From: a virus
Length of the DNA stretch: 64,000 nucleotides
Virus record (IMG/VR): IMGVR_UViG_3300025030_000062
Location: 30,900-94,899 of that record
Reading direction: 5' to 3' (one strand)
Below are positions 3,496 to 64,000 of this stretch, piece after piece. The notes under the pieces were generated by a model. The model had not been told where the DNA came from. It saw only the letters and a list, made by a program, of their open reading frames with translations, and made no database searches. Numbering within the stretch: position 1 is the stretch's first letter; every line of letters starts with the position of its first letter. The translations under genes and the position numbers were made by a program.

Positions 3496-4578
3496 GTGCG
3501 AAGCTTAACTGCATCAGCGAAAAACGCATTTTCACAACTGAACTTTCCATCTTTGGCTCTAGTTGAACTAGACTTTGCTGATGGGTTTGTGAGAGTTTGT
3601 AATGCTGCTTATACTTTTAATTGGGATTCGAAGGGCAATTTAATTACAGATACTGAAGCTCTTTCTTCTCATACTTTATATACGGTAGGTTTGTCGTCTG
3701 AAATAACTGATTTAGGTTCTAGTATTTCAAACGGCGTTGCTCATGTTTATTTTTCTCGTACCGGTACAAGCGGCTCTGATCGAAGAATAAGAACATCAAA
3801 TGGAAGTTATTCTATATCAGTTGATAAGACTCAAGTTTCCACGCTCACATTTGATTTTAAACAAGTACAGGGTTTTGTTGATTTTTATGCACTAGGTTCT
3901 GCTGTTGACGATCAAGCTAATTCACACTCCCGAATTTTTACGATTGCTTCAAACGGAACAATAACCGCTTATTCAGGGTGCTTGATTTCGGATCAAATTG
4001 TTCTTGAAAATGGATTTACACGCATTTCTGTGAAGATTCCAGCTTCTTTTTGGACAGGTTCGGGTGCAACTTTTTATATTTTTGTAGGTGGTGGTTGGAC
4101 TACTGTTGAGACAAAAGAATATTACTACACTAATCCGACGTTTGTTCAAGACGGAACTCAGTGGCTCGGTATCGGTACGCTAGGTTCAATTGAAGCAATT
4201 ACTGAAGGAACTGCGTTACAAATGTACGGTTGTCAATTAACTCTTTCTGGTATTCCTCCTGAAGTTATCAGTGAGGCATTTACCCAAACTTATCAGGGCC
4301 GTTCTGCTACAATCTGGCTTGCACCTTTGACCGAAGATTATGTTATAATTGCCGATCCTGTTGTAGTGTTCAAAGGTAGAATGGATACAATGGATATTGC
4401 TTTAGGTGAGACTTGTACTGTAACCGTTAGTGTTGAAAGTCGCCTTGTTGATTGGGAGCGTCCTAGAATTAGACGTTTTAACGATGAAGATCAGCGTAGC
4501 GAATATCCGAATGATCGTGGATTTAGATATGTTGATCAGATGATACAGAAAGATTTGAAATGGAACCGGAGTAATTAA
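3496..4578 (+). CDS. Minor tail protein with an inserted carbohydrate-binding-like domain
   Basis: GTG start one base after the previous stop; 360 residues. The two ends (FVRVCNAAYTFNWD near residue 35, then WLGIGTLGSIEAITEG and YQGRSATIWLAPLT near 225-275) read as one tail-tip domain of about 200 residues, normally continuous in related phages. Here roughly residues 50-220 are inserted between them. The insert is Ser/Thr/Gly-rich and has the pattern of a jelly-roll carbohydrate-binding module. Probably a virion tail-tip protein whose insert decorates the surface and contacts host glycans. The tail assignment is good; the role of the insert is inference. Confidence 0.7.
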   Translation: MRSLTASAKNAFSQLNFPSLALVELDFADGFVRVCNAAYTFNWDSKGNLITDTEALSSHTLYTVGLSSEITDLGSSISNGVAHVYFSRTGTSGSDRRIRTSNGSYSISVDKTQVSTLTFDFKQVQGFVDFYALGSAVDDQANSHSRIFTIASNGTITAYSGCLISDQIVLENGFTRISVKIPASFWTGSGATFYIFVGGGWTTVETKEYYYTNPTFVQDGTQWLGIGTLGSIEAITEGTALQMYGCQLTLSGIPPEVISEAFTQTYQGRSATIWLAPLTEDYVIIADPVVVFKGRMDTMDIALGETCTVTVSVESRLVDWERPRIRRFNDEDQRSEYPNDRGFRYVDQMIQKDLKWNRSN

Positions 4579-61421: not shown

Positions 61422-61440
61422 ATCAAGCTCCTTCACTCGG

Positions 61441-61504
61441 TTATTTACTACACTCTATCGCTAGCACTAAACAGGTTAATGCTAGCTAAGATAGGAGTAA
61501 ATAA
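61441..61504 (-). terminator. Long inverted repeat / RNA hairpin between early genes
   Basis: Nested arms: TTATTTAC (61441-61448) with GTAAATAA (61497-61504), CTATC (61455-61459) with GATAG (61490-61494), GCTAGCA (61460-61466) with TGCTAGC (61480-61486). As RNA a 64-base hairpin with small bulges, directly after the stop of the 43-aa gene. Could be an attenuator or a processing site. Confidence 0.5.
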
Positions 61505-61636
61505 TTATCTCTTGCAATAAACTTTATTAGAAGCTTCTACTGCAAACAATTCGCCGTCAATATCGCTTTCAGTAGCTACACGAATAGCATTAGCACGAAG
61601 CATTTTTAAGAATTCGTGAGAAGTTAACATTTTCAT
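61505..61636 (-). CDS. Hypothetical protein, 43 aa
   Basis: ATG 61636 (second ATG two codons on), weak AAGGTGA site. LTSHEFLKMLRANAIRVATE, then DIDGELFAVEASNKVYCKR. The first gene of the leftward accessory operon, downstream of a candidate promoter. Unknown. Confidence 0.55.
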   Translation of the reverse strand: MKMLTSHEFLKMLRANAIRVATESDIDGELFAVEASNKVYCKR

Positions 61637-62621
61637 AATTTCACCTTTATCCTTATCATGAATTTAGCAGATGATTCCTTTTAGCATAGGTCAATACCAT
61701 TGTCCAGCATATATTTTAAAATTATTTCTATCAAGCTTTGCTGTTCAAAACTTGCACAATTCCAGGCAAGCTCATTTGATCCGCTAACGGCTCCTTCACA
61801 GCTTCAGCAAAGCTCCTTCACTCTATGTAATCGCGTAGCAATCACAATGCCAAATAACAGCCTTTACCGTAAACTTTCTTCATTTCTCTAACAATTCTCC
61901 TTATTGGCTGATTAAAGCCGTTTTAGCTCCCATTTTAGCCAATCTTCCGTTTTAAGGTACCTAAAATCAGTTATCCACAACTTTATCCACAACTTCAAAT
62001 TTCAGCCTTATTTCAATAGTTTAGTTAACTTTTGCTTGTTGATAACTCACTTCAGGATATTGCCTTAATACCGTGATAAGCATTAAACCCCATAACCGAT
62101 TTAAACAGCATCCTTGCTCGTTTAAAGCTATAATGCAATCTTTCATATGTCTATCATTTCAGCCAATAACGGTATACTAGATATAGTGGTTCATTTGATC
62201 TATACCGCTATATCTAGGCGTTACATTTTGGAACAATTTAGGCTCGTTTCCGGCCAATGTTTCCATAGTGCAAAGGTAAGGTTTAATTCTATACCAGTTT
62301 GATAGAGTTTGATTGTTCATTGCTTTGATAGGGAATTGTTTAACGGTAACTGACTAGACAACTCCATTAACCGTTAGTTCATTTGTTTACTTGATTATTG
62401 AATTTGATATATGCGGAAAGTTGAATGTATCCAGGCAAATTAGGATCGGCGTTAGCTCCTCTCGATCCTGTTCAGCTGTTGACGAATTGCCCACAATTGG
62501 AGCGTGCACCGTCTCGTTTCTAGCTATGTCTATTTGTGGGCAATGCTAGCGTATAGGGTAAGGGATTAGGACCGGCTGTAAGGCCATTTAGGACGCTGAT
62601 TATCGATGTTATAGACGCGAC
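61637..62621. other. Gene-free region with DnaA boxes and inverted repeats; candidate replication origin
   Basis: No credible gene in nearly 1 kb. Two perfect DnaA boxes TTATCCACA at 61971-61979 and 61983-61991, 12 bp apart in the same orientation, and a third TGTTGATAA (62037-62045, TTATCAACA on the minus strand, one mismatch). Perfect 10-bp inverted repeat CTAGATATAG (62177-62186)/CTATATCTAG (62208-62217), and TAACGGT (62341-62347)/ACCGTTA (62370-62376). Surroundings are AT-rich. DnaA boxes bind the host initiator, so host-dependent initiation is likely. Two TGCCCACA-type octamers at 62488 and 62535. Confidence 0.55.
61721..61748 (-). promoter_or_regulatory. Candidate leftward early promoter
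   Basis: Minus strand TTGAAC (61748-61743), 16-bp spacer, AATAAT (61726-61721). It lies 85 bp upstream of the first gene of the accessory operon. Moderate matches only. Confidence 0.4.
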
Positions 62622-62650
62622 AAAGGCCACTCTAACTGCTAGTGGCCTTT
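62622..62650. terminator. Hairpin terminator
   Basis: AAAGGCCACT (62622-62631) and AGTGGCCTTT (62641-62650), perfect 10-bp stem, 9-base loop. Ends the single leftward gene 62676-63059 and isolates the candidate origin. Confidence 0.75.
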
Positions 62651-62675
62651 TGGCTGTATCTGGTATCGGTGAAGG

Positions 62676-63059
62676 TTAGTTTATACTTGCTTGATAGTAA
62701 TAACCAGAACCTTTCTTTTCATCGTAAAATGTGAATTCGCATATCTCGTTAAACATTGTACCGTCAAAGTTTAGAATGTAAGTCTGATAATCAAGCGGTT
62801 TACATTTGGAAATTTCACTCTTTGCGCCGTCCATTTCACATTCTGATTCTATAGCGCGTCCATGATTATATTCAAAGTCAACAAAGCTTTTAATGCCGTT
62901 TTTCTTGCTAACACTTATGTTATAAATGCTCGTTGGATTTTCAAAGGATTCACGTTCAATATCAAAGCTAAAACCTTTCGCTTCACATGCCGCTTTGACG
63001 TAGGAAAAGAACTGAGCCAAGCTAACATTGTTTCTCGTAATTTCTATTTCAGCTTTCAT
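62676..63059 (-). CDS. Hypothetical protein with its own promoter and terminator, 127 aa
   Basis: ATG 63059 with AAAAGGAGC; a longer in-frame ORF starts at 63077. KAEIEITRNNVSLAQFFSYV, then KAACEAKGFSFDIERESFEN, IKSFVDFEYNHGRAIESECE. Alpha/beta, acidic. Resembles small conserved phage proteins. Being monocistronic with a strong promoter next to the candidate origin suggests an early, strongly expressed role. Function unknown. Confidence 0.66.
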   Translation of the reverse strand: MKAEIEITRNNVSLAQFFSYVKAACEAKGFSFDIERESFENPTSIYNISVSKKNGIKSFVDFEYNHGRAIESECEMDGAKSEISKCKPLDYQTYILNFDGTMFNEICEFTFYDEKKGSGYYYQASIN

Positions 63060-63100
63060 ATTAGCTCCTTTTAACATATTAAATTAACCTTTCGCCGTAA

Positions 63101-63128
63101 CTTATATCATTTCAATGACGCTTGTCAA
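63101..63128 (-). promoter_or_regulatory. Strong sigma70-like promoter for the 62676-63059 gene
   Basis: Minus strand TTGACA (63128-63123), 16-bp spacer, TATAAG (63106-63101), about 42 bp upstream of the start codon. Confidence 0.65.
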
Positions 63129-63129
63129 T

Positions 63130-64000
63130 CGTTAAAGTTTCATTTCTCGCATTACTCGTTACACGTCTTGTTGCCTCATTCCGTTGCTCGTTGCCGGTCA
63201 TCCGCTTGCCGGTCATCCGCTTGCCGTCTCCTATCCCTCATACGGTCATGTGCTCCATTGCCGTCTAGCACGTCTCCTTTGCCGGTCCATACCGTTAGCT
63301 TGCCATGCTCCTTTACGCCGTCTCTAGGTCATCCTAGAGGCTCGTTTATCGCTTCTCTTGCCGTGTCTCGATAGATCGACCGTTCGGCCAGCTGGTAAGG
63401 CTCCTTTGATCCAGGCTAACACCTTGTTGCCATTCATTGGCTCATTACACTCCTTCACCTGATACCACTACCAAGCTCGTTAGCGCAATCATGCAAGCAA
63501 TCATGCTTATAGGCTCGTTGTCCAGCTCGTTGTGCTACTCCATAAGCTAATCCCATTGTCCAGCTCGTTAGTCAATACCGTCTCGTTGCCGTTCATACTC
63601 TCATTTCCCCACAATACAGCCGTTCCATACTTTGATCCGTCAACAGCTTGCCGTCTCACTCTTGCTTGTTGCTTCGATTAACTCATTACTTCAGCCGGTC
63701 TACTCCTTCAACTCAACAGCTCCATTGTCTTGTCTACTTCCATTACTTCGCCCATTACTCAATCCATTACTCATTGTTTATTACATCCAATAACACGCCG
63801 TAACTCTTTAATATCGTTCATGTTTTGCTACCGTTAAGTATCTTGTTATCAGATTGTCTCTACTCACTGAGTAACCTGGAGCACTCGAAATTTCCTAGTC
63901 ATTCCGCATACTTAGGGAAACTGAGTACCTGGTCTACTCACTACTGAGTAACCGTACCACTCCCCCGTCGAAAAACCTTTGGAGTTCTCGCTAGTTAGAC
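63130..64000. repeat. Non-coding, repeat-rich right end
   Basis: No credible gene. The + strand is pyrimidine-rich and filled with short repeated words (GCCGTCTC, CTCGTT, CATTACT). Tandem 15-bp repeat TTGCCGGTCATCCGC at 63191-63205 and 63206-63220, with a partial third copy. CTACTCACTGAGTAACC (63860-63876) recurs as CTACTCACTACTGAGTAACC (63934-63953), both containing inverted ACTCA/TGAGT. Could be a terminal, packaging or regulatory region; the window ends inside it. Confidence 0.5.

Follow-up and report, generated by a model that had tools for sequence, protein, structure and literature searches.

A conserved element with three DnaA-type boxes as a candidate replication origin in an undescribed phage

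A putative protein-binding site, conserved in a distant relative and with a core of three DnaA-type boxes in a fixed geometry, lies at about 61942-62160 of the phage DNA analysed here. It is surrounded by an extensive region, for the most part non-coding, with the leftward early genes on one side and the rightward genes on the other. To judge from the sequence comparison with this relative, the element is very probably functional. The explanation that we prefer, and to which we give somewhat less than an even chance, is that of a replication origin opened by host DnaA: host DnaA would bind the boxes and help to open the DNA or to load a helicase, the first round of phage replication would begin at the element, and the B-family polymerase, clamp, primase-helicase and SSB of the phage would take over afterwards. 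The weights given to this and to the other explanations are judgements and were not computed.

The window (that is, the whole stretch of 64,000 nucleotides) corresponds to nt 30,900-94,899 of a virus contig of 94,899 bp, which is classed as linear. Its left part carries the tail genes, which are followed by genes for a B-family DNA polymerase, a sliding clamp, a helicase, a Cas4-type exonuclease, an SSB, and a Sak4 annealing protein; also encoded there are a ligase, MazG, ThyX, a repair exonuclease, a methyltransferase, and a primase-helicase. A long series of small leftward genes reaches ~61.6 kb. The remainder of the contig (L003 and L004) encodes, on the plus strand, RtcB, the terminase, the portal, a protease, and the capsid. 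All of the query proteins of the contig are less than 60% identical to those of annotated phages, and the phage is therefore undescribed. The nearest annotated relative of its major capsid protein (L004:4751-5971) is found in Streptomyces phage Chymera (48%), while its replication proteins point to phages of Proteobacteria, which suggests a mosaic genome.

The first-pass annotation had described two copies of TTATCCACA 12 bp apart, together with an opposite-strand TTATCAACA within 75 bp, in a gene-free and AT-rich setting. The coordinates of the three boxes, all of which fall within 75 bp, were confirmed, and they are given here with their counterparts in the relative, L039:

61971-61979, plus strand: box 1, TTATCCACA, a perfect DnaA R1/R4-type box; L039 has TTGTCAACA
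61983-61991, plus strand: box 2, TTATCCACA, starting 12 bp past the start of box 1; L039 has TTATCAACA
62037-62045, minus strand: box 3, an inverted TTATCAACA with one mismatch, 54 bp after box 2; identical in L039 and lying inside TGTTGATAACTCA

The surroundings are indeed gene-free, in that the DNA between ~61.64 and 62.68 kb contains merely short, probably spurious ORFs, and they are AT-rich to a modest degree (61960-62220 has a GC content of 34.1% versus 41.5% for the contig).

The whole 94,899-bp contig contains only two copies of TTATCCACA, both at this site, and this number is in itself unremarkable: chance alone should give ~0.84 in a genome of such length, and at least two arise in 14 of 100 shufflings of the window. 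It is the clustering that goes beyond chance, since 300 order-3 Markov genomes contained neither a pair within 100 bp nor a group of three TTATCMACA sequences within that distance. Boxes 1 and 2 are perfect tandem copies of a 12-bp unit (TTATCCACAACT x2.1) and may derive from a single duplication; the argument from chance therefore has to allow for one such event, and the independent evidence is that of conservation. The idea that TTATCAACA is a genome-wide motif of the phage was rejected, its count being that expected from word composition. A reading of the boxes as promoter or terminator was also dropped, no strong match overlapping them, and an Rfam search gave no match.

L039 comes from a 42.7-kb IMG/VR contig that was found among the contigs encoding a related RtcB, and it shares the neighbouring genes too. 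To its left lie homologues of the leftward genes found between 58152 and 60792 in the window, to its right lie homologues of the rightward genes found from contig nt 1085 onward, and between these two sets are ~2.8 kb without evident genes. Joining the ends of our contig gives the gene order of L039, so the two flanks look like a single divergent region; it is on this gene order that the joining, which we infer, is based. In the window's phage, the region thus joined is interrupted by one ORF of 133 aa. The parts of the region that are recognisably conserved are these:

61942-62052, plus strand: conserved non-coding element holding all three boxes, 72% identical to L039:4201-4310
62094-62106, plus strand: conserved block AACCGATTTAAAC, 57 bp past the start of box 3 in both phages
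62129-62151, plus strand: conserved TATAAT and TCATATGT motifs, at a fixed distance in both phages

The match between 61942-62052 and L039 4201-4310 has an E-value of 2e-6 (2e-8 in a regional search), and its local alignment score of 55 compares with at most 35 in 500 shuffles, while the other intergenic DNA of the divergent region is mostly unrecognisable between the two phages. The box spacings of 12 and 54 bp are equal in both, and when the sequences are compared in the register of the boxes, identity is 89% over the 27 box positions as against 44% over the positions between them. In addition, CTAAAATCA, which precedes box 1, is kept at the same distance in L039. Spacing and box identity thus indicate, within two genomes, that the geometry of the boxes is under selection, and its persistence in a distant relative means that a genuine cis element is well supported. 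The main weakness of the evidence from conservation is this number of genomes: in scans of viral and genome contigs, only the contig of L039 proved to contain a true relative of the element, and searches of annotated phages and plasmids gave no DNA homologues beyond ~20-40 bp. An exact 23-bp copy of the tandem-box stretch is present in Streptomyces phage Byblos (L233:3003-3023, an unannotated record). A box tandem in L027 lies within an ORF matching primase and was set aside as probably due to chance.

The surrounding DNA has several further features:

61631-61730, no strand: low-stability DNA, the least stable 100 bp within 61440-62676, 240-340 bp to the left of box 1
62177-62217, no strand: inverted repeat with exact arms CTAGATATAG and CTATATCTAG at 62177-62186 and 62208-62217
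62486-62544, no strand: second inverted repeat, with 16-nt arms at 88%
62676-63077, leftward: orphan ORF of 133 aa without family matches
contig nt 1-230 (L003:1-230): the least stable DNA of the contig, 21% GC, ~2 kb from the boxes

The first inverted repeat is as perfect as had been claimed, and its arms extend to 14 nt at 93% with a folding z-score of -4.1. It was sought in L039 and is not kept there; it therefore probably lies outside the core element. The candidate origin proposed by the first-pass annotation is well supported as a real cis element by the geometry shared with L039. The low-stability stretch could possibly serve as an unwinding element: only 0.55% of the windows of the contig are less stable, and L039 has such a stretch in a similar place, at 3922. 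Cumulative GC skew, which had been put forward as a check, has its minimum at contig nt 183, a distance of ~2.2 kb from the boxes once the two ends of the contig are connected. The position of the boxes, at a divergent gene boundary near this minimum, makes an origin plausible; however, skew follows gene direction, and the minimum is thus not independent evidence for an origin. Another divergent region, at 40.6-41.5 kb, was considered as an alternative origin and rejected, no iterons being found. Beyond contig nt 1-230 are a promoter-like TTGACT-17-TAGGAT and a purine-rich stretch. The 133-aa ORF is accompanied by a sequence strongly resembling a promoter (TTGACA-16-TATAAG, at 63128), and just downstream of the ORF, at ~62627-62652, is a hairpin of terminator type.

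As to what binds the boxes, the DnaA box consensus of E. coli is TTWTNCACA (PMC5835720), a consensus that may not be that of the hosts of these phages and that is fitted by two of the three boxes here and by none of the three in L039. The departure is due to an A at position 6, which is present in box 3 and in all of the L039 boxes, that is, in four of the six instances. A search for DnaA domains in the phage, run with positive controls, found none, and none of the scanned phage proteins could be assigned to a known initiator family. Binding by host DnaA is likely but uncertain, because every L039 box misses the E. coli consensus at position 6. Such binding is made plausible by the two perfect boxes and by the absence of a recognised phage DnaA, with the L039 boxes counting the other way; the earlier proposed mechanism of DnaA recruitment appears reasonable but over-specific.

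This conserved cis element with DnaA-type boxes belongs to a known kind, represented by the T5-type phages (Tequintavirus / Demerecviridae), which likewise encode replication proteins of their own. The boxes of T5 sit in a 10-kb terminal repeat with the pre-early genes A1/A2, and both T5 and oldekolle have boxes at two places, one between divergent pre-early genes and the other farther on in the terminal repeat. In the gene-free stretch that separates the divergent early genes of oldekolle, TTATCCACA occurs as two 12-bp tandem pairs, and beyond it lies a TTATCAACA/TTATCCACA pair; T5 and the Vibrio phages Ceto and pVp-1 have both the TTATCCACA and the TTATCAACA forms. Like the T5-type phages, the phage studied here has DnaA boxes of both forms mixed together in non-coding early DNA. 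It differs from T5 in the type of its identified replication genes and in that no terminal repeat has been reported. The contig is listed in IMG/VR as lacking end repeats, although assembly can collapse a repeat; in L039 the region is internal. Searches without a positive control gave no match to T5 A1 or A2. A motif beside the boxes that is shared with oldekolle, TTTAAGN4CTAAAA, was attributed to coincidence since T5 itself lacks it.

The replication modules of Septimatrevirus, Kilunavirus, and Lokivirus (phage 73, KL1, and Halfdan) comprise a similar set of genes, for polymerase, clamp, helicase, exonuclease, SSB, Sak4, MazG, and primase. These three have no DnaA-box cluster, and their genomes are about half the size. 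Such a cluster is absent from all five of the checked phages with homologous replication genes, so the replication module itself needs none. Another viral contig, L246, whose helicase and Cas4 genes are related, has at 3744-3813 a DnaA-box cluster of its own that includes TGTTGATAACTCA. With bacterial oriC and with DnaA-dependent plasmid or phage origins, of which P1 oriR is an example, the element shares clustered boxes, AT-rich surroundings, and a position near the GC-skew minimum; it differs from them in having just three candidate boxes, one of them off consensus, and no recognised adjacent initiator gene.

The case for an origin is therefore made by the clustering, the geometry shared with L039, and the same divergent region in both genomes, as well as by the skew minimum, the low-stability DNA near box 1, the lack of a DnaA domain in the phage, the T5-type phages with boxes in their divergent early region, and the role that boxes of this type generally play. 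Against it are counted the A at position 6, the five box-less phages, the distance of the least stable DNA, the conservation in two genomes, and the dependence of skew on gene direction. More specifically, a three-box origin in a phage with its own B-family polymerase and primase-helicase replisome, opened either by DnaA of the host or by a protein of the phage with a DnaA-like preference (position 6 being C or A), on a replication module that was without such boxes in the other phages checked, seems rather doubtful to us.

Two other explanations are serious rivals. Bound host DnaA might serve early control, either as a transcription switch at the divergent promoters or, as has been proposed for T5, as a pause or stop in DNA entry. 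In the passages on the injection-stop signal of T5, this signal comprises repeats, palindromes, and DnaA boxes, and no origin is mapped there to the boxes (PMC13250531); that the published boxes of T5 are assigned in those passages to injection stop rather than to a mapped origin counts against the origin reading. The boxes of the present phage likewise lie in non-coding DNA together with inverted repeats and early genes, as T5-type injection stop would have it, and the position of the T5 and oldekolle boxes, between divergent pre-early genes and in the terminal repeat, favours early control as well. Nevertheless, given that IMG/VR reports no terminal repeat, that the uncontrolled searches gave no A1/A2 match, and that no sigma-70-like promoter overlaps the boxes, we place this explanation on the unlikely side. 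Alternatively, the protein that binds the boxes could come from the phage itself, as an initiator or regulator with a preference for TTRTCMACA; the match of the boxes to the DnaA box would then be partly convergent. Four of six instances with A at position 6 would fit such a protein, as would the many early proteins without a family match and the lack of a clear enrichment of TTATCAACA around TTATCCACA tandems at loci in phage contigs picked for the tandem alone. It is nonetheless unlikely, since two of the boxes are letter-perfect and have the 12-bp spacing that is common in the box arrays of many other viral contigs (selected by this pattern, with no frequency estimate), both box forms are mixed in T5-type phages, and no known initiator family was recognised.

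A decoy that titrates DnaA off the host origin, and so restrains host replication in the manner of datA, is improbable. Perfect boxes in a cluster would fit it, and datA itself has two consensus boxes and four with one misfit (PMC5835720); yet three boxes per genome are few, and a decoy would need neither the fixed 54-bp spacing nor the conserved flanking blocks. It is very improbable that a chance match was enlarged by 12-bp tandem duplication: the number of TTATCCACA copies expected in such a genome and the perfect tandem would allow it, but the three-box geometry persists in distant L039, where the tandem units are no longer identical.

A compact and conserved element with DnaA-type boxes provides a defined place for asking whether phages of this kind depend on host DnaA; the literature searched contained no mapped origin for phages with this class of polymerase and primase. 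Its conservation suggests that DnaA boxes are kept by selection in phages that have their own replisome, which bears on the unexplained boxes of T5.

The last 0.9 kb of the window (63100-64000) has a purine-rich minus strand, no evident genes, and a GC skew of -0.295. This stretch contains about ten Shine-Dalgarno-like heptamers, AA[CGT]GAGC (GCTC[ACG]TT on the plus strand), compared to about one per kb elsewhere.
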